DNA of 64,000 nucleotides from Kriegella aquimaris (GCF_900103215.1 NZ_FNGV01000008.1:186001-250000), one strand, 5' to 3'. Positions 35,472-64,000 are shown, counted from the stretch's first letter. Program-made: numbers and translations. Notes: generated by a model not told the origin, from the letters alone.

Positions 35472-38400
35472 TTGTATCTCAACTGTCACACATATTATAG
35501 TTTGCGCTACGGCACCTTTTCAGAGGTGGAACTGTTGCAATTGGCGCAAGACAATCAGGTGACCCAATTGGTGTTGACCGATATCAACAATACTTCGGCC
35601 GCACTTAATTTTGTTCGCAAGGCTCCCGAATATGCAATAAAACCTATACTTGGTGTCGATTTCAGAAATGGCGCCGATCAATGTTATGTGGGTATTGCCA
35701 AAAACAACGAAGGGTATCAAGAGTTGAATGATTTTTTGTCTGAACACCTCCATCAGCAAAAGGACCTGCCTTCGATAGCTCCACTTTTCAAACATGCGTA
35801 TGTTGTTTATCCTTTTGAAAAAGTGGTATTGACCGATAAAAAATCGTTTGCTGAACACGAGTTTATCGGTGTTTCCATTGCCGACCTGAGGCGTTTGCCT
35901 TTCTCCAGGTTGTTGGCGCTAAATGACAAACTGGTAGTGCAGCAACCCGTTACATTTCGCAATAAACGTGATTTTAATGCCCATCGACTGCTACGGGCAA
36001 TTGAAAGCAATACCTTGTTGAGCAAGCTTTGCAAGACCGAGGAAGCCGATGAGGAGGAAAAAATGTTTCCCATTCAAAACTTGGCGATGGCCTTTTCGGA
36101 GTACACTTTTATTTTGGAGAATACGGAACGACTACTAAACTCTTGTAGTATTCAATTTGACTTTTCTGCCGGACGAAAGCCCCAGAACCTAAAAACGTAT
36201 AATGCAACAAAGGAGGAAGACGAGGTGATGTTAGAGCGATTATGCCAAGAAGGGCTTCCCTATCGATATCCTGATGGTGGCGATGCCGTTATGGAACGCT
36301 TGAAAAAAGAATTGGAGCTTATCAAGACTATGGGTTTTGTCTCGTATTTTCTTATCAATTGGAATATTGTTTCCTATGCCCGCGAACAAAAATTTTTCTA
36401 TGTAGGGCGCGGTAGTGGAGCCAATAGTGTTGTGGCTTATCTATTACGAATTACCGACGTAGATCCCATGGAACTTGATTTGTACTTTGAGCGGTTCATT
36501 AACCTGTATAGGGCCAATCCACCAGATTTTGATATCGATTTTTCGTGGAAAGACCGTGAGGAGATTACGCAATACATATTTGATACATTTCCGAACGTTG
36601 CTTTACTTGGCACCTACGTTACGTTTAAAGATAAAGGTGTGGTGCGCGAATTGGGCAAGGTATTTGGTTTGCCCAAAAGCGAAATCGACTTTTTATCGGA
36701 AGGTAGGTATCGATTTGAAGATCTTGATGATGTTTCGCGATTGGTTATAAAGTATGGTCGCTTGATTCAAGGTATGCCCAATTACTTGAGTATACACGCT
36801 GGGGGTATTCTGATCAGTGAGAAGCCTTTGCATTGGTTTTCGGCCACTCATCTACCGCCCAAAGGGTTCGCGACCGTACAGTTTGATATGGTCATTGCCG
36901 AAGATGTAGGCTTGTTTAAATTCGATATTTTGGCGCAACGGGGGCTGGCCAAGATTAAGGAAACGATGGAAATACTAGAACGTGATCGTCCCGATGAATT
37001 TTCGAAAGTCGATATTCATAACATCATTGCATTTAAAAAAGACCCCAAAATCAATAATCTCATAAAAACTGCCCAGTGTATGGGCTGTTTTTACGTGGAG
37101 TCGCCCGCCATGAGAATGCTGCTCAAAAAATTGGAGGTAGACAATTACTTGGGATTGGTGGCGGCAAGTTCTATCATCAGGCCCGGTGTTGCCAAAAGCG
37201 GTATGATGCGCGAGTATATATTGCGCCATAGAAACGAGGGTAGGGCTGAAGAAAAAGCACATCCCGTAATGCTCGATATCATGCGTGACACTTATGGGGT
37301 CATGGTCTATCAAGAAGATGTTATCAAAGTCGCCCACCATTTTGCCGACCTTACCTTAGGGGAGGCCGATGTCTTGCGTAGGGGTATGAGTGGTAAGTTC
37401 CGCTCACGTGACGAGTTTCAAGAAGTAAAGGAGAAGTTTATTGAAAACTGTCGAAAAAAGGGAGAAGAAGACCGTATTATTTTCGAAGTGTGGGAACAAA
37501 TCGCCAGTTTTGCGGGGTATGCCTTTGCCAAGGGACATTCGGCATCTTATGCCGTCGAAAGTTATCAGAGTTTGTTTTTAAGGGCGTATTATCCTTTGGA
37601 ATATATGGTGGCGGTGCTCAATAATGGTGGCGGATTTTATAGTTCAGAGTTTTATGTGCACGAAGCCCGAATGTTAGGGGCTACCGTGCATGCGCCCTGT
37701 ATCAATAAAAGTTTGGCTGTCAACCGTATTTATGGTAAACAATTGTATTTGGGGTTTATGTACCTACGTGATTTGGAAGGTCGTGTGATGGAACGTATCT
37801 TGAAAGAACGGTTGTGTCATGGGGCGTTTGCCTCTTTAGAAGATTTTCTGGATCGCATCATTATATCAATAGAACAATTGAGTATTTTAATACGGATAGA
37901 TGCCTTTCGATTTACGGGAGTAAACAAACATGAGTTGTTATGGAATGCCCATATGTTTTTGAACAAGAGCGTGAAAATAGACCATCCGAAATTGTTTCCT
38001 CCCAAACATCAAGATTTTAAAATTCCTACCCTGCATACTACTGATCTCGAAATGGCTTTTACCCAGTGGGAGTTATTAGGTTTCTGTCTGTGCAGTCCGT
38101 TTGAACTCTTGGTCAAGCCGCCTAAAAATAAATCGGGAAGCAAAGATTTAAAACGTTATCTAAATCGGCACATCGATATTTATGGCTATCTGGTGACAGT
38201 AAAAAATACCAAAACCCATTCGGGAAAACAAATGCACTTTGCCACCCTGGTAGATCAACAGGGCGAGGTGTTCGATACGGTGCTTTTTCCACCTGTAGCG
38301 GCCCAGTATCGCTTTAGGGGCAAGGGAATTTATCGTTTTTACGGAAAAGTTGTAAGCGAGTTCGATTTTTTAAGTATCGAAGTCATAAAAATGGAAAAGC

Positions 38401-38525
38401 AAGATTATATACAGGACCCCCGGTACGCCGATATGAAAACGAGCACTAAGGTATTCCAAGAAAAGAAGAATGCAGTTAAAGCGCAATCACAAAAGGGGGA
38501 AACTAAAAAGAGCCCAATCAACTAA
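35472..38525 (+). CDS. dnaE: DnaE-type DNA polymerase III alpha subunit, probable error-prone copy
   Basis: 1017 residues, about 150 shorter than replicative DnaE. Starts at a TTG (MYLNCHTYYSLRYGTFS, the PHP-domain entry; the usual LHxHS metal motif is degraded here, so PHP activity is doubtful). The polymerase core keeps the GRGSGANSVVAYLL motif and the catalytic acids in NPPDFDIDFSW, then YQEDVIKVAHHFADLTLGEAD and FAKGHSASYAVESYQS. An OB-fold ends the protein (IDIYGYLVTVKNTKTHSGK). The pairing with dinB resembles the ImuB-DnaE2 mutasome, without an ImuA partner here. The last codons (ETKKSPIN and stop) lie inside repeat copy 1. Confidence 0.9.
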   Translation: MYLNCHTYYSLRYGTFSEVELLQLAQDNQVTQLVLTDINNTSAALNFVRKAPEYAIKPILGVDFRNGADQCYVGIAKNNEGYQELNDFLSEHLHQQKDLPSIAPLFKHAYVVYPFEKVVLTDKKSFAEHEFIGVSIADLRRLPFSRLLALNDKLVVQQPVTFRNKRDFNAHRLLRAIESNTLLSKLCKTEEADEEEKMFPIQNLAMAFSEYTFILENTERLLNSCSIQFDFSAGRKPQNLKTYNATKEEDEVMLERLCQEGLPYRYPDGGDAVMERLKKELELIKTMGFVSYFLINWNIVSYAREQKFFYVGRGSGANSVVAYLLRITDVDPMELDLYFERFINLYRANPPDFDIDFSWKDREEITQYIFDTFPNVALLGTYVTFKDKGVVRELGKVFGLPKSEIDFLSEGRYRFEDLDDVSRLVIKYGRLIQGMPNYLSIHAGGILISEKPLHWFSATHLPPKGFATVQFDMVIAEDVGLFKFDILAQRGLAKIKETMEILERDRPDEFSKVDIHNIIAFKKDPKINNLIKTAQCMGCFYVESPAMRMLLKKLEVDNYLGLVAASSIIRPGVAKSGMMREYILRHRNEGRAEEKAHPVMLDIMRDTYGVMVYQEDVIKVAHHFADLTLGEADVLRRGMSGKFRSRDEFQEVKEKFIENCRKKGEEDRIIFEVWEQIASFAGYAFAKGHSASYAVESYQSLFLRAYYPLEYMVAVLNNGGGFYSSEFYVHEARMLGATVHAPCINKSLAVNRIYGKQLYLGFMYLRDLEGRVMERILKERLCHGAFASLEDFLDRIIISIEQLSILIRIDAFRFTGVNKHELLWNAHMFLNKSVKIDHPKLFPPKHQDFKIPTLHTTDLEMAFTQWELLGFCLCSPFELLVKPPKNKSGSKDLKRYLNRHIDIYGYLVTVKNTKTHSGKQMHFATLVDQQGEVFDTVLFPPVAAQYRFRGKGIYRFYGKVVSEFDFLSIEVIKMEKQDYIQDPRYADMKTSTKVFQEKKNAVKAQSQKGETKKSPIN

Positions 38526-38585
38526 GACCAAGCTCTTTTACGAGAACACTATATGAAAATGAAAAATTTTACTTCGTATTAATTA
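38501..38585 (-). ncRNA. Candidate small RNA, repeat copy 1
   Basis: Minus-strand transcript predicted from the candidate promoter at 38591-38621 to the hairpin AAAAGAGC/GCTCTTTT (38506-38513 with 38532-38539). This copy shares an uninterrupted 34-nt core with the other three but its hairpin is reduced to 8 bp. Its 3' end is antisense to the last codons of dnaE. Ends are estimated from the promoter and hairpin. Confidence 0.4.
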
Positions 38586-38590
38586 CATGA

Positions 38591-38656
38591 CAAACATACC
38601 ATTGACTCACTTGTTTTAAAACTTTTTGATGTGAAGGTGGGCAAATTTGTGGTGTA
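38591..38656 (-). promoter_or_regulatory. Promoter and tandem operator of repeat copy 1
   Basis: On the minus strand the -7 element is TATGTTTG (38598-38591), an exact TAnnTTTG although it differs from the other copies. The -33 position reads TTT instead of TTG. Direct repeats TTGATGTGAA (38626) and TTGTGGTGTA (38647) are 21 bp apart, and the first sits 36 bp from the -7 element exactly as in the other copies. Confidence 0.4.
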
Positions 38657-55943: not shown

Positions 55944-56056
55944 TGCCTGTTTTTGAATTAATGCCTTATTGGTTACAGTCGAAATGCTTTTGTCTATTCT
56001 TCAATCCTATTCAGGATTATAAAAAATTAATGAGACCCCGAAATAGAGAAGCATAA

Positions 56057-56141
56057 AACTAAAAAGAGCCTTGTCTAGTTAGACGAGGCTCTTTTACGAG
56101 AACACTATATGAAAATGAAAAAATTTACTTCGTATTAATTT
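56057..56141 (-). ncRNA. Candidate small RNA, repeat copy 2
   Basis: Minus-strand transcript from the promoter at 56147-56177 to a 15-bp hairpin (56062-56076 with 56081-56095, loop AGTT). Relative to copies 3 and 4 the stem has a compensated T-A to G-C change at 56073/56084 and one pair that is U-G on the plus strand but A-C on the minus strand. On the plus strand the hairpin could also end the NHL-gene transcript. Confidence 0.5.
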
Positions 56142-56146
56142 CATAA

Positions 56147-56212
56147 CAAACTTACGGTGAGGTTCCCAAAACGACAATTAAATGATGTGAATGCCTCTAA
56201 TTATGTTGTGAA
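56147..56212 (-). promoter_or_regulatory. Promoter and tandem operator of repeat copy 2
   Basis: Minus strand: TAAGTTTG (56154-56147) preceded by a 20-bp spacer and TTG (56177-56175). Upstream lie direct repeats ATGATGTGAA (56182) and ATGTTGTGAA (56203), 21 bp apart as written on the plus strand, with a third similar ATGAAGTGAA directly after. Confidence 0.55.
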
Positions 56213-56268
56213 TGAAGTGAATTTTATATTTTAGGAGTTAGTGAAGTAAATCGAAAATCTTAAAACAC

Positions 56269-56305
56269 AAACACCATAGGATACTTTCGGTTGCCTATGG
56301 TGTTT
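56269..56305 (-). terminator. Terminator after the S8 peptidase gene
   Basis: Perfect 12-bp inverted repeat AAACACCATAGG / CCTATGGTGTTT with a 13-nt loop, followed on the minus strand by GTGTTTTAAG. It lies 16 bp past the peptidase stop. Confidence 0.75.
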
Positions 56306-56320
56306 CTTGGTTTTAGGGTT

Positions 56321-58687
56321 TTACGAGTTTTCCTTTTTATTCTTAAAAGCCCAAGTTACCCTTCCTACTTCTTCTTTTTTATACAATTGTCGTATATAAA
56401 AATGGTGGGTTCCTCTTCTAAATTCCTTATTGCCTTTTACGATAAACTTACACTTAAATATTTGCTTTCCTAACTTTAAGTTGCAAAGGTAAAAAGTCTT
56501 TAAATTCGGAAGTTGAAAAGTTACCGTTTGGCTTTTTTTATCAATTTTGGCTTTTAGTCCCTTTAAACCGATTTGTCTATAAAAACGATAAGGTACCTGT
56601 AGCGATACGTTTGCTGATTTGGGTAGATTTCGAACAATCTCAATATCAAAAGGTCGTTCTCTGTCCGGCGATCCGACAATATTGATTGGCATTTCAAAGA
56701 TGGGGTCGTCTGCTTCAACGTTAATTACATTAAAGTTTCTCCATGTCGCATTATTGTTATTACGGACAAACGCCCTAAAATCGTCCCAATCGAAATTTGT
56801 AGCCGGTGGTAAAGGTGGCGCACCATCTTGAGGATGGTTGATTAGTCCGACAAAGCAGTAATGACCGGTAGCAGGTATGTCGTTTTTGTCCCATACAATA
56901 GGGTCGGTGACAACCATGGTGTCGCCTACAGGAACGTTAACAGCCCCAGATGTGCCTATAAGGTTCCATAAATTAGGTGTAACCAGAGTTGATACTTCAC
57001 TCCAATAAACTTGGGCGGTTACCCCATTTGCAGCGGTAAAACCCCTATTTTTCATTCTTACATAAATATAATTGTCTTGTCCCGATTCTACTTCGTAACC
57101 CAATGTACTCGAATTTTCAGTACCACTGCCTTCTCCGAAAGAAGTGGTCGGATCAGCTACTGGATTTGGGCGGGCGATAATATCTGGACTAGCGCTGATG
57201 CTGCCCGAAGAGGGAACGATGCCTGTGTCGCCTACGTTATCCCTCAAATAGATATCGGGGGTAATCTCTAAAGTGTCTTCTAGAATGGCCCTAAGATTGG
57301 GCATAACCCCAATATTGCCACTAACCCCTGTTCCTTGGGCTGTTCCTGTTGCTGAATTCGACAATAGAGACCGCATTTGCAAAGGCGATAAAATGGTGCC
57401 TGTTGAATCTTTATAGGCACCTTGCAAAATTAGGGCAGCACCGGTAATCATGGGTGATGCTCCACTAGTTCCACCAAAAGTACTTGTGTAATCATCGTTC
57501 ATGGTAGCGGTTAGGTCGTTGCCCAATGAGCCAGCACGTCTATTCGCATAACCTGAGGTGACAATATTTTCGCCCCAGCCATAGCAATCTATTCTGGAAC
57601 CAAAATTGGAGGAAGCCCATCTGTTATGTGGTAAGGCAGATAATGAGGCCCCGACCATAATGGCTCCCGAATCCATAAAATCGGCGTGGGTCCTGTTCAA
57701 TCTGAAATTACCGGCTACATCGGTAAAGCTATCCAAATTTCTATTGCCATTACCAGCAGCCTCAACGACTATGATGCCATTTGCTACCGCCAACCGTATG
57801 GCATCGAAATCGGCCATATCCATTTCAGAAGGGAGAAAGTTTCTTTGTACCTCCAGTAATAATACATCACCCACATTCATGTTAAGAATAGCTGCGACAA
57901 TGGCATCTGCCACGTGTAAGGCTGTATCTGAAGAAGCCTCATAGTGCGAAGCCATACGCACGTAAGCAATTGAAGGCGCTATGCCCACTATTCCAGCGGT
58001 ATTATCTACCCCGACTACTTCGCCTAAGACAGCTGTTCCATGGTCTCCGATATAGGTGCCTACCCCACTTCGATTATCGTTAAAGATCAGTGTTGGTGAT
58101 GCTGCGGCCAAATCTTCATGAGTAGGGATCCATCCTTGTTCCAAATCTATAAACCCGATTCCTTGACCTTCAAATCCTTGGCCCCAAGCCCAAATTGCGT
58201 CAATGCCCGTTGGTGCCGCACCCAAGTAACCTTGTTGAGCCGATAGATTATCATTGCTTGGATTGACAAAAGGATCAGTGACCGTATGTTCTTTGTAGGC
58301 AAAGTTTATTTCGTATAGGCTATTAAATTCTTTGATTAATTCATCAATGTTGCCCTCATAATTTCTATAATCCAGCCGCCAGTAGTTAGAAAGGCTTCGC
58401 AACATCGGAAAACCACTATTTCGCCCAGTTTTTTCAAGTTTACTAAGCTCTTTTATGGAGGCACTTTTAATCTGCCTTCTGACAAAACTAGGCTTGGAAC
58501 GATCCAACAGACCTCTTAGTTTTGTTAGTTTGAATTTTTCAACAAGCTCCTTGAGTTCCTTTCCCTCGAAATAAGAATATTTATCGGATAAATTAAGGAT
58601 AATAAAACCACTGAATTCTTTCCCTCCGGTTGAATCATTTGCTTTGAAACGATGCAAGAGACTTTCATTTTGTACTAAATTTTTCAT
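56321..58687 (-). CDS. S8 family subtilisin-like serine peptidase without obvious signal peptide
   Basis: 788 residues from the ATG at 58687; an in-frame TTG at 58726 would add 13. The triad is visible: Asp181 in IGFIDLEQGW, His216 in GDHGTAVLG, Ser408 in GGTSGASPM, plus oxyanion Asn in AAGNGN. The first 150 residues are a charged helical domain (KELKELVEKFKLTKLRGLLD) rather than a signal peptide, so it may stay in the cell or leave by another route. Residues 510-640 contain a CARDB-like beta domain (NYIYVRMKNRGFTAANGVTAQV). It lies between repeat copies 2 and 3 on the minus strand. Confidence 0.85.
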   Translation of the reverse strand: MKNLVQNESLLHRFKANDSTGGKEFSGFIILNLSDKYSYFEGKELKELVEKFKLTKLRGLLDRSKPSFVRRQIKSASIKELSKLEKTGRNSGFPMLRSLSNYWRLDYRNYEGNIDELIKEFNSLYEINFAYKEHTVTDPFVNPSNDNLSAQQGYLGAAPTGIDAIWAWGQGFEGQGIGFIDLEQGWIPTHEDLAAASPTLIFNDNRSGVGTYIGDHGTAVLGEVVGVDNTAGIVGIAPSIAYVRMASHYEASSDTALHVADAIVAAILNMNVGDVLLLEVQRNFLPSEMDMADFDAIRLAVANGIIVVEAAGNGNRNLDSFTDVAGNFRLNRTHADFMDSGAIMVGASLSALPHNRWASSNFGSRIDCYGWGENIVTSGYANRRAGSLGNDLTATMNDDYTSTFGGTSGASPMITGAALILQGAYKDSTGTILSPLQMRSLLSNSATGTAQGTGVSGNIGVMPNLRAILEDTLEITPDIYLRDNVGDTGIVPSSGSISASPDIIARPNPVADPTTSFGEGSGTENSSTLGYEVESGQDNYIYVRMKNRGFTAANGVTAQVYWSEVSTLVTPNLWNLIGTSGAVNVPVGDTMVVTDPIVWDKNDIPATGHYCFVGLINHPQDGAPPLPPATNFDWDDFRAFVRNNNNATWRNFNVINVEADDPIFEMPINIVGSPDRERPFDIEIVRNLPKSANVSLQVPYRFYRQIGLKGLKAKIDKKSQTVTFQLPNLKTFYLCNLKLGKQIFKCKFIVKGNKEFRRGTHHFYIRQLYKKEEVGRVTWAFKNKKENS

Positions 58688-58983
58688 TTTTAAATGATTT
58701 AAGTATTTGTTATTCAATTTTTTCAAACTTTTCTCAATGGTGATTCAATAGTGCTTATCGGAAACCATAAGTTTGGGTGCACTGTTTTTGAGGGAAGAAA
58801 AAAGGGGGTGTGGGTATTACTAAGAAATATATGGTTCAAATATATTGAAACTTAGTACCGGCTGGGGTTGATCTGTATGGATGACAGGATTTTTTGTATG
58901 GTTTGCGAAACGGAGAGCCCGTTCATAAAAAATGTACGGTCCGAACGAAAACATGGAATTTGAGGAGTGAGAAAATAGTCTAT

Positions 58984-59068
58984 AACTAAAAAGAGCCTTT
59001 TCTTACTAGAAAAGGCTCTTTTACGAGAACACTATATGAAAATGAAAAATTTTACTTCGTATTAATTT
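58984..59068 (-). ncRNA. Candidate small RNA, repeat copy 3
   Basis: Best-preserved copy. Minus-strand transcript of about 85 nt from the promoter at 59074-59104 to a perfect 15-bp hairpin with a 4-nt loop (58989-59003 with 59008-59022) and a T-tract on the minus strand (GGCTCTTTTTAG). As no plus-strand gene ends just before it, the hairpin is unlikely to be a plain gene terminator; that makes this copy the strongest case for a stand-alone RNA gene. Confidence 0.55.
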
Positions 59069-59073
59069 CATGA

Positions 59074-59139
59074 CAAACTTACGGCGAGGTGACCTAGACC
59101 GCAACTAAATGATGTGAGTGGCTCCAATTCTGTTGTGAA
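59074..59139 (-). promoter_or_regulatory. Promoter and tandem operator of repeat copy 3
   Basis: Minus strand: TAAGTTTG (59081-59074), 20-bp spacer, TTG (59104-59102). Direct repeats ATGATGTGAG (59109) and CTGTTGTGAA (59130), 21 bp apart, begin 4 bp upstream of the -33 element. Confidence 0.55.
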
Positions 59140-59304
59140 AGAATACTTTTTTGATGACCTGTTGAGAAGTAGGTTTTTAACTTAGGTGAAATTCTGTAGG
59201 GGTCGATTGTATTTACTGGCATTTGCACTCCAATTTTAATAGGTGATGGAAGCGTTTTTTTTGTAGTTTCATGCAGTAAACCAATTTATTAGAAAAACTT
59301 TCCC

Positions 59305-59769
59305 ATGACGAATTCCATAAAACTGCATGTCAATGGACACGAGCATGAAATCGAAGTTGCTCTTAATACCCCATTGCTATATGTATTGCGTAATCAACTT
59401 CAACTGAACGGACCTAAATTTGGATGTGGGTTGCAGCAATGCGGTGCTTGTATGGTTTTAAAGGACGGAGAGTCTGTGCCATCTTGTAGGCTACCCGTCA
59501 GTGCAGTATCAAAATCAAAGATTCGCACTTTGGAAGGGCTGGCTGATATAAACGGAAGCTTACATAAGGTACAGCAAGCTTTTATTGATGAACAGGCAGC
59601 ACAATGTGGGTATTGTCTTAACGGAATGATAGTGGCTGCAGTTGCATTACTTGAAAAAAATGATAAACCCAGTGATGACGAAATAAGAAAAAAATTAGCC
59701 CTGAATATTTGTCGTTGCGGTATTCATTCAAGGGTAATCAAAGCGGTTAAAAAAGCGGCATCTAATTAA
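59305..59769 (+). CDS. [2Fe-2S] small subunit of xanthine-dehydrogenase-family molybdenum hydroxylase
   Basis: 154 residues. Carries two iron-sulfur cluster motifs: CGCGLQQCGAC in a plant-ferredoxin fold (residues 43-53) with PSCRLPV, and AAQCGYCLNGMIVAA with NICRCGIHSRVIKAV in the helical domain. Closest in layout to the isoquinoline 1-oxidoreductase alpha subunit. It passes electrons from the molybdenum subunit encoded 7 bp downstream. It has no own signal, so it is probably exported folded together with its Tat-bearing partner. Confidence 0.92.
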   Translation: MTNSIKLHVNGHEHEIEVALNTPLLYVLRNQLQLNGPKFGCGLQQCGACMVLKDGESVPSCRLPVSAVSKSKIRTLEGLADINGSLHKVQQAFIDEQAAQCGYCLNGMIVAAVALLEKNDKPSDDEIRKKLALNICRCGIHSRVIKAVKKAASN

Positions 59770-59776
59770 TTAGAAT

Positions 59777-61978
59777 ATGAAAGCTACGCGACGCAATTTC
59801 ATCAAACAAATAGGATATGTGAGCATTGGGTTTTCAATGGTCGGAACCGTTGGTCTTGCAAATGGCGGTTTTATGCCTATCGACAAAACAGGTTCTTTAT
59901 TAGGAACCCCGGATAAAGATCAGATCAATGCTTGGTTGCAAATATTGGAGAATGGAAAGGTCAAGGTCTTGACCGGAAAAATTGAACTGGGTCAGGGAAT
60001 TCGAATTGCTGTCGCTCAAATGGCTGCGGAGGAGCTAAATACCGATTTAGATTTGATCGAAGTGAATATAGCCGAAACTGGGGTGACACCAGATGAAGGC
60101 TTTACGGCCGGAAGTAGTTCCATTGTATCAAGTGCTATGGCGGTGCGAAATGCAGCTGCTTCGGCACGCGAAATCATTTTGAAAATAGCTTCTAAAAAAT
60201 GGGGAATGGCCATTTCACAACTACAACTTAAAAATGGCAAGGTTCTCGGTCCGGAACGAGAAATGTCGTTGTATGAGCTTTTAGACGGCGAGCAAATTGA
60301 AAAAACGATAGCAAAAGCAACGGAATACAAGGGAAAAACAATTCGAAAGTATGTCGGGAGACCTATCCCCAGAAAAGATATAGAAGCGATGGTTAGGGGG
60401 CAGGAAGTATTTGTTCAAGACCTTCGATTTCCAGGTATGGTGCATGCTCGGGTGGTGCGCCCACCAAGTTATACCGCCAAATTGGTTACTATCAATGAAG
60501 CTGAACTCGAAAGGTCGCCCCACCTTTTGAAGCTGGTTCGTAAGGGGAGTTTTCTGGGGGTATTGGCAGAAGATGAATACCAGGCAATCCGGCTTATGGA
60601 AAAAGCCAAACAACTTGCAAAATGGAATGCACCGGAAAGGCTTCCCGGTAATATCAATGTAAAGGAATATCTGAAAACTCTTCCTGCTGATATCGAAACA
60701 CATGAGGAAAAAGGCGATTCGGATACTTCCTTGAAACAATCGAAAAAGCAACTTAGTGCATCTTTCTTTAAACCTTACCTGATGCATGCGGCCAATGGTC
60801 CGTCATGTGCCGTAGCTCTTTTTAAAGAAGGGGAATTATATGTATGGACTCATAGTCAGGGTGTTTATCCGTTACGGAGAACCTTGGCCAAATTAGTTAA
60901 AATGCCCGAAGATGCTGTTCATTTAAAAGCGGTTCCAGGTTCGGGGTGCTTCGGACAAAACGGTGCGAACGATGCTGCGACCGAGGCGGCACTTATGGCG
61001 ATAGAATATCCGGGGAGACATGTTCGCTTGCAATGGACTCGTGAAGATGAACATGGTTGGGAGCCCTACGGAACGGCCATGATAGTAGAATTGAAGGCAG
61101 GCCTTGATGAAAATGGCGAAATAGATGGTTGGAAATGTGCTATTTGGTCCGATGGACATAGCAACCGACCTAACGGTAACCCAAACACGCTTCTTCCTGC
61201 CCAGTTTTTGGAGGAGGGTTACGGGCATCCGGGAATTGGCTACCGCGGGGGAGCAGTGCGCAATGCGATTCCGTATTATGACATTCCCAATCTAAAGGTC
61301 GAGACACATATTTTTCAGGGGCCATTACGGGCTTCGTCATTACGGGGACTCGGCACCTATACGAACGTTTTTGCCATTGAATCGTTTATGGATGAGCTGG
61401 CGCGGATGTCGAATACCGACCCCATTGAATTCCGTATTCGACATTCGAACGATGAAAGGTCAATTGCCTGTATGAAAAAACTTCAAGAAAAGTTGGTAGG
61501 GATTTCTATTCGGGGAGGCGAAGGATTGGGATTAGCATTTTCCCGTTATAAAAATAACGCCTCTTATTGTGCTATGGCCGCTCATGTAAGTGTAGACAAA
61601 ATAACAGGAAGTGTACAGGTCAAGAAAATGTGGTCTGTTGTCGATGCAGGGGAAACTATTAACCCTGATGGGCTAAAAAACCAAATGGAAGGGGGTATGA
61701 TTCAATCCGCCAGTTGGGCGCTTAAAGAAGAAGTTCGTTTCGATGCACAACATATAACTACTCTCAATTGGAATTCATATCCCATTTTTAGATTTCCTGA
61801 TACCCCGGAAGTGGAGGTCGAAGTAATCGACAGGGTTGATGAGCCACCGATGGGCGCGGGAGAAGCAGCGCAAGGCCCTGCAACGGCCGCCATCGTCAAT
61901 GCAATTTTTGATGCTACAGGTGTACGGATTAGAGAATTACCGGTTAATAAAGAATTGATCAAACAAGCTAAAACTTGA
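59777..61978 (+). CDS. Molybdopterin-binding large subunit, Tat-exported (IorB-like)
   Basis: 733 residues. Twin-arginine signal ATRRNFIKQIGYVSIGFSMV. The aldehyde-oxidase/xanthine-dehydrogenase domains show KIELGQGIRIAVAQMAAEEL, the molybdopterin region VPGSGCFGQNGANDAATEAA, RLQWTREDEHGWEP, and MGAGEAAQGPATAAIVNA, whose Glu is the expected active-site base. Family members hydroxylate N-heterocycles or oxidise aldehydes in the periplasm. No cytochrome subunit is encoded beside it, so the electron acceptor comes from elsewhere. Substrate unknown. Confidence 0.9.
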   Translation: MKATRRNFIKQIGYVSIGFSMVGTVGLANGGFMPIDKTGSLLGTPDKDQINAWLQILENGKVKVLTGKIELGQGIRIAVAQMAAEELNTDLDLIEVNIAETGVTPDEGFTAGSSSIVSSAMAVRNAAASAREIILKIASKKWGMAISQLQLKNGKVLGPEREMSLYELLDGEQIEKTIAKATEYKGKTIRKYVGRPIPRKDIEAMVRGQEVFVQDLRFPGMVHARVVRPPSYTAKLVTINEAELERSPHLLKLVRKGSFLGVLAEDEYQAIRLMEKAKQLAKWNAPERLPGNINVKEYLKTLPADIETHEEKGDSDTSLKQSKKQLSASFFKPYLMHAANGPSCAVALFKEGELYVWTHSQGVYPLRRTLAKLVKMPEDAVHLKAVPGSGCFGQNGANDAATEAALMAIEYPGRHVRLQWTREDEHGWEPYGTAMIVELKAGLDENGEIDGWKCAIWSDGHSNRPNGNPNTLLPAQFLEEGYGHPGIGYRGGAVRNAIPYYDIPNLKVETHIFQGPLRASSLRGLGTYTNVFAIESFMDELARMSNTDPIEFRIRHSNDERSIACMKKLQEKLVGISIRGGEGLGLAFSRYKNNASYCAMAAHVSVDKITGSVQVKKMWSVVDAGETINPDGLKNQMEGGMIQSASWALKEEVRFDAQHITTLNWNSYPIFRFPDTPEVEVEVIDRVDEPPMGAGEAAQGPATAAIVNAIFDATGVRIRELPVNKELIKQAKT

Positions 61979-62001
61979 CTTAAATGAAAAGAAATGCTTA
62001 A

Positions 62002-62088
62002 AACTAAAAAGAGCCTTTTCTAGTAAGAAAAGGCTCTTTTACGAGAACACTATATGAAAATGAAAATTTTTACTTCTTGTTTTAAATA
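62002..62088 (-). ncRNA. Candidate small RNA, repeat copy 4
   Basis: Minus-strand transcript from the promoter at 62094-62124 to a perfect 15-bp hairpin with loop AGTA (62007-62021 with 62026-62040). The core matches the other copies, but the first 25 or so nucleotides differ. The hairpin starts 28 bp after the hydroxylase stop, so it could also serve as plus-strand terminator. Confidence 0.5.
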
Positions 62089-62093
62089 CAGAG

Positions 62094-62159
62094 TAAACTT
62101 ACGGTGATGTGCACTGAACTACAATTATATGTTGTGAACAGTGCTTTTTTTGTTGTGAA
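62094..62159 (-). promoter_or_regulatory. Promoter and tandem operator of repeat copy 4
   Basis: Minus strand: TAAGTTTA (62101-62094, last base off consensus), 20-bp spacer, TTG (62124-62122). Direct repeats ATGTTGTGAA (62129) and TTGTTGTGAA (62150), 21 bp apart. Confidence 0.5.
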
Positions 62160-62253
62160 AGAAGTATTTTGTGATGTACTGGATTTGAGGGTGGAATTAT
62201 GGGGTTTCGGCAGGATGTAAAGTTTTTATGTTTTTAGAAGTTTTTATTCAAAA

Positions 62254-62305: not shown

Positions 62306-62833
62306 CTAATTCAAATAATTACCTTGTGCATCAAGTTTAAGGTTCTTTTTTGACCGATCTTTTCGCAATTTTACCTTGTAGTGCTTTTTTGGTTCTTTTC
62401 CATAACTATAAGAAACCTCATAAGAGCTCGAATAAAGGTCCCAGCCTGGGTGTTCTTTGAATATGGTATTTCTTACTTCGAAAGGAGGTGTTATTGCATC
62501 AAACTTTTCATGCGCGGAAACTACTTTTCCAGCATTATCGAATTGAGCGCGTATATAACCGTTTCCATTGGTGTCATCTTTAAACACGATTTCATATAAA
62601 TCAAGATTTTCTGCAAATCTACTGTCCTTATCAATGTTGTATTTCGCGACCCTATATTCCAATGCCTTGACTGGACGTGGAGTATTGTGGTCTTGAATAT
62701 TTTTAAGATATTCTGCATTTTGGGCGATTACCTCAACTCCTTCGATGTGTATTGTTCTCATACAATCTTCAGTTTGGGCACTACCAAAGTAAAATGTTCC
62801 GATTGCCAAAAGGCATACTGTTGTTGTTCTCAT
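62306..62833 (-). CDS. Small secreted protein, PepSY-like beta fold
   Basis: 175 residues with a signal peptide ending near FGSAQ. The mature part is a repeated beta-rich domain (YEIVFKDDTNGNGYIRAQFDNAGKVV and SYEVSYSYGKEPKKHYKVKLR, then LKLDAQGNYLN), reminiscent of the PepSY/BLIP-like repeats in Bacteroidota periplasmic proteins. The family assignment is by look only. Function not known. A clear terminator follows; the next gene upstream, 68 bp away on the same strand, encodes the 78-residue protein. Confidence 0.65.
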   Translation of the reverse strand: MRTTTVCLLAIGTFYFGSAQTEDCMRTIHIEGVEVIAQNAEYLKNIQDHNTPRPVKALEYRVAKYNIDKDSRFAENLDLYEIVFKDDTNGNGYIRAQFDNAGKVVSAHEKFDAITPPFEVRNTIFKEHPGWDLYSSSYEVSYSYGKEPKKHYKVKLRKDRSKKNLKLDAQGNYLN

Positions 62834-63366: not shown

Positions 63367-64000
63367 TTAAATCGTACGAAAAAGCCTAAAAACGGTCTCT
63401 TTGTGTGATTTGCTAACAGGAATTTTGTTGTCACCGATAAAAAGCATATTGCCCTCAAAACCATCTACCAAATTGATATTGACAACGTAGCTTCTGTGAA
63501 TTCTTAAGAAGCGATCTTGGGGTAATTGCGCTTCAATTTTATTAAGTCCGACGGAATACATAAAGCGATCCGTTCTAGTGTATACGGTGCAATAATTGCT
63601 ATCGGCTTCTAAAAAAAGTATTTCTTCAATGGGTACGCGTTCAAAATGTTGGTTCTTTTTCAAGAACAGGCTGTCTTTAATTTGTAATACTTGGTTTTCC
63701 GTAGGTGAAAAAGTTTTTTTCCCCAATATTTGCCTTTCGGGAATTTTGATTGCAAAATTTTTAAGGGCCAACTCTATGGCTATGCTAACCTGACGATCAT
63801 TAAATGGTTTGAGTAAATAGGCATATGGCCTCACACTTTTGGCTCTTTCGATAAGGTAGCTATCAGCATGGGATGTAAGAAAAAGAAATGGAATATTATA
63901 TGTATCGTTTATAATCCGAGCAAGTTCAATGCCATCACGATCGCCTTTTAAAACGATATCGATCAATAACATATCAATATCTTGGTTTTTTGACAACAAA
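63367..64000 (-). CDS. LytTR response regulator (N-terminus cut by window edge)
   Basis: Two-component regulator. The visible part starts inside the receiver domain; DMLLIDIVLKGDRDG carries the phosphorylated Asp, FLTSHAD the Thr/Ser switch and YLLKPFND the conserved Lys. About 40-50 residues are missing. The C-terminal LytTR DNA-binding domain is complete (ILFLEADSNYCTVYTRTDR, DRFLRIHRSYVVNINLVDGF, IPVSKSHKETV). LytTR proteins bind pairs of direct repeats about two helical turns apart, which is the layout of the repeat-unit operators in this window. The kinase is not in the window. Confidence 0.93.
   Translation of the reverse strand, partial: LLSKNQDIDMLLIDIVLKGDRDGIELARIINDTYNIPFLFLTSHADSYLIERAKSVRPYAYLLKPFNDRQVSIAIELALKNFAIKIPERQILGKKTFSPTENQVLQIKDSLFLKKNQHFERVPIEEILFLEADSNYCTVYTRTDRFMYSVGLNKIEAQLPQDRFLRIHRSYVVNINLVDGFEGNMLFIGDNKIPVSKSHKETVFRLFRTI

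Follow-up and report, generated by a model that had tools for sequence, protein, structure and literature searches.

Four short, closely related units lie in one orientation within a 64,000-nucleotide stretch of the Kriegella aquimaris genome (NZ_FNGV01000008.1:186001-250000; hereafter the window). The question they raise is whether they are repeats that spread without function or genes in their own right and, if genes, what controls them and on what they act. Our analysis leads us to propose, with a probability of roughly three in four, that they belong to a family of sibling small RNAs (sRNAs) that is controlled by a two-component system and blocks the translation of an mRNA encoding a CAP-domain lipoprotein.

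Four units and their relatives

The positions and shared orientation of the units agree with the preliminary description, as does the length of their unchanged core, since the longest string common to all four copies is exactly 34 nt (TTTTCATTTTCATATAGTGTTCTCGTAAAAGAGC). Read on the minus strand, a unit begins with two direct repeats (TTCACAACA / TTCACATCA), followed by a T-rich flank, a nonconserved spacer, the element TAnnTTTG, and a variable leader. After the leader comes a 26-nt core (TTTTTCATTTTCATATAGTGTTCTCG) and then TAAAAGAGC, which opens a hairpin of 14 to 15 bp, and lastly a run of T. The parts of each copy are as follows.

38501-38656, minus: sRNA unit copy 1 (operators, promoter, RNA, terminator), covariance-model E=8e-16
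38648-38656, minus: copy 1 LytTR-type repeat 1, TACACCACA
38627-38635, minus: copy 1 LytTR-type repeat 2, TTCACATCA
38591-38598, minus: copy 1 -7 element, TATGTTTG
38541-38566, minus: copy 1 invariant 26-nt core, antisense to the predicted target start region
38501-38540, minus: copy 1 terminator hairpin and U tract
56057-56212, minus: sRNA unit copy 2, covariance-model E=7e-17
56204-56212, minus: copy 2 LytTR-type repeat 1, TTCACAACA
56183-56191, minus: copy 2 LytTR-type repeat 2, TTCACATCA
56147-56154, minus: copy 2 -7 element, TAAGTTTG
56097-56122, minus: copy 2 invariant core
56057-56096, minus: copy 2 terminator hairpin, one A.C mismatch
58984-59139, minus: sRNA unit copy 3, covariance-model E=5e-17
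59131-59139, minus: copy 3 LytTR-type repeat 1, TTCACAACA
59110-59118, minus: copy 3 LytTR-type repeat 2, CTCACATCA
59074-59081, minus: copy 3 -7 element, TAAGTTTG
59024-59049, minus: copy 3 invariant core
58984-59023, minus: copy 3 terminator hairpin
62002-62159, minus: sRNA unit copy 4, covariance-model E=7e-17
62151-62159, minus: copy 4 LytTR-type repeat 1, TTCACAACA
62130-62138, minus: copy 4 LytTR-type repeat 2, TTCACAACA
62094-62101, minus: copy 4 -7 element, TAAGTTTA
62042-62067, minus: copy 4 core, first base A instead of T
62002-62041, minus: copy 4 terminator hairpin

The -7 elements had been read correctly from the start (TATGTTTG, TAAGTTTG, TAAGTTTG, and TAAGTTTA in copies 1 to 4). 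Two other details need amendment. The units had been called intergenic, which is not strictly true of copy 1, as it overlaps the last codons of a plus-strand dnaE-like open reading frame (ORF; 35472-38525). Likewise, the stem given as 15 bp in copies 2 to 4 measures 14 to 15 bp, with one A.C mismatch on the minus strand in copy 2. BLAST of copy 3 against its own 6.06-Mb genome retrieved the other copies (E=2e-50, 6e-33, and 5e-29), along with a fifth copy elsewhere (G000:C7:63190-63272; E=2e-20).

The family extends well beyond this genome. An exact scan with 27 nt of the core found at least 119 loci in Flavobacteriaceae of the Maribacter/Muricauda type, with named hosts that include Maribacter, Allomuricauda/Muricauda, Flagellimonas, Arenibacter, Cellulophaga, Eudoraea, Muriicola, Robiginitalea, Croceitalea, Pseudozobellia, and others. 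Such a scan is biased toward an invariant core; the BLAST and covariance-model sets, for which the core was not required, agree with it. BLAST of one unit showed that five other genera each carry several copies, and a covariance model built from 94 units had strong matches (E<1e-7) in 44 of the 250 Flavobacteriaceae genomes sampled, with few intermediate scores. Copy number in those 44 genomes was one to six, and in some relatives tandem copies were found about 300 bp apart.

Databases gave the family no name. The Rfam 15 scan of the window returned tRNA only and no RNA family for the units, while a permissive Rfam scan of six units gave chance-level matches, the best from Bacteroidota being BTnc231 at 21 bits versus a cut-off of 80. 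The earlier suggestion of a known family such as Flavo-1 is therefore not supported, as no Rfam family, Flavo-1 included, rose above its gathering threshold. We also found no account of the RNA in the open-access sRNA literature on Zobellia, Maribacter, Muricauda, and Arenibacter. Judged by these sequence comparisons, it is a previously uncatalogued RNA family from one clade of marine Flavobacteriaceae.

RNA genes on the minus strand

The units are genuine minus-strand RNA genes, and the initial reading of them as small-RNA genes with their own promoters and terminators is supported. Across 148 nonredundant units, double compensatory changes occurred in 13 of the 14 stem pairs, G·U wobbles numbered 272 in the minus-strand sense versus 41 on the opposite strand, and 121 units favored the minus-strand sense by wobble versus 6 that favored the opposite one; these counts of changes, like the Fisher-type tests reported here, come from related sequences and so do not represent independent events. 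Mean hairpin energy was -18.1 kcal/mol on the minus strand versus -13.0 kcal/mol on the plus strand. The hairpin and U tract form a conserved terminator, and the core ahead of it is single-stranded and invariant (UUUUUCAUUUUCAUAUAGUGUUCUCG). The strand had initially been left in some doubt because copy 2 is one of the few wobble exceptions, but the asymmetry in wobbles and the double changes across the family resolve it to the minus strand.

Could the units instead have spread without function, either as a passive interspersed repeat of the MITE or REP kind or as a mobile terminator cassette? The several near-identical copies in one orientation, and the tandem arrangement in some relatives, would be compatible with that view, and three of the four window copies directly follow a plus-strand gene, where the hairpin could end the transcript of that gene as well. 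We nevertheless give it very little credence. A MITE or REP would spread without position-specific constraint, whereas here the constraint is confined to functional elements: operators, -7 element, core, and stem are preserved, and divergence is seen in leader, spacer, and loop. Compensatory change in nearly every stem pair, a copy number that stays between one and six, and strict co-occurrence with one regulator (see below) all contradict passive spread.

Least probable of the readings that we considered is a functional product on the plus strand, such as a leader peptide, a start-codon-bearing element, or a bidirectional terminator. The stem of copy 2 does pair better on that strand, and the plus strand of the unit reads ATGAAAATGAAA. 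Against this, the wobble counts and hairpin energies point the other way, the operator and -7 element are oriented for minus-strand transcription, and neither frame nor length of the plus-strand ORF is conserved. Among the 141 units examined, there was no conserved reading frame on either strand; 120 of them lacked any ATG ORF on the sense strand, and the antisense MKMK ORF varied in length from 6 to 61 amino acids (aa).

A LytTR-type promoter and its likely regulator

In all four window copies, the operator consists of two direct repeats, each 9 bp long, at a period of 21 bp, in the form TTCACAACA-N12-TTCACAACA at a fixed distance from TAnnTTTG. A 22-position pattern of operator plus -7 element (four mismatches or fewer) matched 139 of 141 units versus 0 of 141 shuffled upstream regions; the pattern was built from a subset of the same units, which had themselves been gathered by the core alone. 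The constant spacing noted previously is upheld, with the value corrected: by recount from the start of the second repeat, the distance to the start of the -7 element is 37 bp rather than 36 bp, and it was exactly 37 bp in 79 of the 88 units aligned on the repeats. The supposed conserved TTG at -33 is better described as a T-rich stretch that flanks the operator on its right (TTCACAACAATAATTT), given that in the same 88 units conservation was confined to the T's (1.1, 1.8, and 0.7 bits), the base after them carrying 0.3 bits. The preliminary description had named conservation no higher than that of the spacer as a refuting outcome; the -7 element (1.6 to 1.8 bits) and the operators exceeded the spacer (0 to 0.2 bits). 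The RNA genes would be transcribed from a TAnnTTTG promoter that has no good -33 box.

Repeats of 9 bp that are 12 bp apart have the usual spacing of a LytTR operator (PMC6193735). If such an operator is taken as 9-bp direct repeats with a gap of 11 to 13 bp at a fixed distance from the promoter, the units conform with a gap of 12 bp; a search with a 13-bp gap, which served as a control for the 12-bp gap, gave near-chance matches. By its architecture, the operator is of the LytTR type. It resembles known LytTR operators in having 9-bp direct repeats 12 bp apart upstream of a promoter, and differs from them in that the repeat TTCACAACA is not of their ACC..CTTA type (PMC6193735) and in that a main predicted output is a small RNA.

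Which LytTR protein would use this operator? A Response_reg-LytTR gene that is more than 80% conserved lies directly upstream of the RNA gene in 35 loci, and in most of these a TPR-HisKA_2-HATPase kinase gene lies downstream of the RNA. Among the 250 genomes, the conserved regulator was present at 78% identity or more in 44 of 44 genomes with a strong sRNA match, six further genomes had a diverged regulator (60 to 75%) and no strong sRNA, and the remaining 200 had neither (Fisher value of 7e-43, which ignores phylogeny and is descriptive only). One conserved LytTR response regulator is therefore likely to regulate the RNA genes, and from synteny and co-occurrence we infer that it would bind and activate them directly. 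Two points weigh against this: the window's own genome, which carries the conserved regulator at G000:C16:277069-277818, is missing the RNA copy beside that gene, and it has 19 LytTR genes in all.

At its edge, the window itself contains part of another LytTR response-regulator gene (63367-63999), a paralogue next to copy 4; after it comes a small secreted protein (62306-62833) without a Pfam match, also near copy 4. Control of the RNA genes by this paralogue or by another of the 19 LytTR genes in the genome seems quite improbable. The paralogue carries a LytTR domain and is 1.3 kb from copy 4, but its identity to the conserved regulator is only 40%, and we set it aside as the regulator; both the synteny in 35 loci and the genome-wide co-occurrence in 44 genomes favor the conserved gene.

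Other elements lie near the regulator gene in related genomes. A short unit (ACCCCAAATCTTATCATT..AAGGCTATGC-hairpin) occurs near the regulator gene in L245, L247, L057, L074, L079, L080, L101, L117, L118, L144, L239, and L244. In L245 and L247 it contains the core-like string CATTTTCATATATAGTGTTC, and it is possible that this unit is a relative or ancestor of the core family. Where the regulator is diverged and the core sRNA absent (L253, L255, L256, L257, and L258), other promoter-plus-terminator units stand between regulator and kinase, several of them in L256. These units suggest a turnover of RNA outputs under an operator that is retained.

A CAP-domain lipoprotein mRNA as candidate target

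Taken as its reverse complement, the core reads GAACACTATATGAAAATGAA and includes a start codon. When 11 positive genomes were searched for this sequence without bias toward any gene (up to three mismatches, the sRNA genes themselves left out), eight of them (G250, G011, G212, G238, G032, G018, G143, and G026) had antisense matches at the start codon of the same orthologous gene. That gene encodes a secreted lipoprotein of about 158 aa with a CAP domain (PF00188; Pfam E=3.7e-13), and the sequence around its start codon is GAACACUAUAUGAAAAUGA. The duplex between core and start region had a median energy of -23.7 kcal/mol in 39 genomes with the sRNA versus -7.5 kcal/mol in 26 genomes lacking it (p=2.6e-9). 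For comparison, the best median among 200 shuffled cores was -13.4 kcal/mol, and the best duplex among 4534 other start regions, a minority of the genes in the genomes concerned, was -22.2 kcal/mol, a value that many CAP sites exceed. Transitions within the target window were wobble-keeping in 34 cases (for example, GAACAUUGUAUG for GAACACUAUAUG) versus pair-breaking in 7, alongside 27 transversions. The CAP site in the window's genome, AAGAACACTATTATGAAGAT, requires one bulged base to pair, at -19.8 kcal/mol. Based on this computed complementarity, we infer that pairing by the core probably blocks translation of the CAP-lipoprotein mRNA.

It is unlikely, though less so than the alternatives above, that the same RNA and regulator act in another way, either because pairing activates the CAP mRNA or alters its stability or because CAP is a minor target and the core mainly serves a protein or mRNAs other than this one. 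All 26 nt of the core are invariant even though the CAP site tolerates mismatches, and in about 10 sRNA-positive genomes the best CAP match does not pair; most of these matches are less than 50% identical and may be paralogues. In addition, two predicted targets of the sRNA Rfp18 in Flavobacterium psychrophilum have less mRNA when Rfp18 is lost (PMC9723704). Translational block is favored by the fact that pairing covers the start codon itself, where a block of initiation is the usual outcome, and by the lack of an equally strong, recurrent site among the 4534 other start regions, which represent a minority of genes. Our target search relied on a single pattern, allowed few mismatches, and would overlook targets that use part of the core. 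Because the core is invariant, further targets are likely, with none established. In G000, a gene for an M16 peptidase (L205) and one for a secreted protein (L207) also pair at their start codons; we do not claim them as targets, which would call for conserved pairing.

In the mechanism that we propose, a signal would pass from the TPR-HisKA_2 sensor kinase to its partner, the conserved LytTR regulator, which would bind the two 9-bp repeats with their 21-bp period and activate all RNA copies together. Each copy would yield a trans-acting sRNA of about 85 nt with a variable 5' leader, a single-stranded core, and a terminator hairpin. Pairing of the core over the AUG of the CAP mRNA would keep ribosomes off or speed up decay, such that the copies jointly lower translation of the lipoprotein when the sensor is active. 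Repression would thus be the sign of the regulation, with the copies acting additively.

Known systems offer points of comparison. Vibrio Qrr RNAs are multicopy sRNAs that are induced by LuxO and need Hfq and sigma-54, and the CiaR protein of streptococci is an OmpR-type regulator. The family described here has several near-identical copies per genome (one to six in 44 genomes), each with a regulator-type promoter (139 of 141), an intrinsic terminator, and predicted dependence on the regulator, as well as a conserved single-stranded core that pairs, by computation, with the start region of the CAP lipoprotein. The streptococcal csRNAs, several siblings under one regulator, act additively over RBS and AUG (PMC4507080). 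The proposed mode of action resembles that of these CiaRH-controlled RNAs, whereas phylum, regulator type (LytTR here), core sequence, and target differ, and there was no csRNA among the Rfam matches of the units. Listeria LhrC comprises multicopy sRNAs induced by the LisRK two-component system (PMC4132741). The likeness to LhrC and Qrr lies in multiple copies under a two-component regulator; we saw no relation to either in sequence or regulator. Rfp18, an sRNA of F. psychrophilum that acts on secreted proteins (PMC9723704), is similar in being flavobacterial and in having a secreted-protein target, but by its description it is strongly structured, pairs via its third stem-loop, and is conserved within Flavobacterium (PMC9723704).

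The promoter pattern is not limited to the core family. In eight genomes it occurred at 15 to 20 places per genome versus 0 to 3 for the reversed pattern. One set of these promoters precedes a second, unrelated multicopy RNA family of about 170 nt, with four copies at G000:C17:166-176.5 kb (L292, 166000-176500) and further loci in L264, L266, L268, L280, L284, L288, and L303. This RNA, which had no Rfam match, consists of repeated CCCAAATCG...CTTAACC/CTTGACCTA modules that resemble ordinary mRNA leaders, followed by a terminator, and it may act as a decoy for a leader-binding factor. The same promoter also precedes a conserved protein of 33 to 35 aa (MEAQMNQTQEDIQVYRNEFFSGIVMLTKKLFML in G250) in L293 (promoter index 1696, plus strand), L309, L276, L277, and L308; no Pfam match was found for this protein. 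Other matches lie before the kinase gene that accompanies the regulator, before kinases of the PAS type and the TPR type, and before a sigma-70-like factor (MELQIEDSVLVRDYISGDEKSLEILINRHNQR...; L296, L305, and L287), for which most of the eight genomes have similar promoters. For the sigma factor, and for the two kinase types where they lie away from the regulator locus, the family was assigned by reading the sequence rather than by profile search. Separately, a motif (TTTCATCGAAAA / GTTCATCGATGAAC) is common to the region upstream of the CAP gene (L313, L314, L315, and L320) and the vicinity of the second RNA family (L289 and L303), and is perhaps the site of another regulator. We tentatively suggest that the main direct output of the LytTR/HisKA_2 system could be RNA, namely the core family, the second family of about 170 nt, and the short units between regulator and kinase, together with the proteins of 32 to 35 aa, and that a persistent operator could have seen these outputs replaced over time.

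Among Bacteroidota sRNAs, few have been assigned a regulator or a target. In the open-access papers that we found, none links a multicopy RNA of marine Flavobacteriaceae both to a two-component system and to a conserved target, and here regulator, RNA, and target are all provided, as predictions from sequence alone, in genera such as Maribacter, Allomuricauda, Arenibacter, and Cellulophaga. The analysis also brings to light a regulon that includes at least two more types of RNA not catalogued before. Some of the host genera are culturable, and antisense control at the start codon becomes testable in Flavobacteriaceae.
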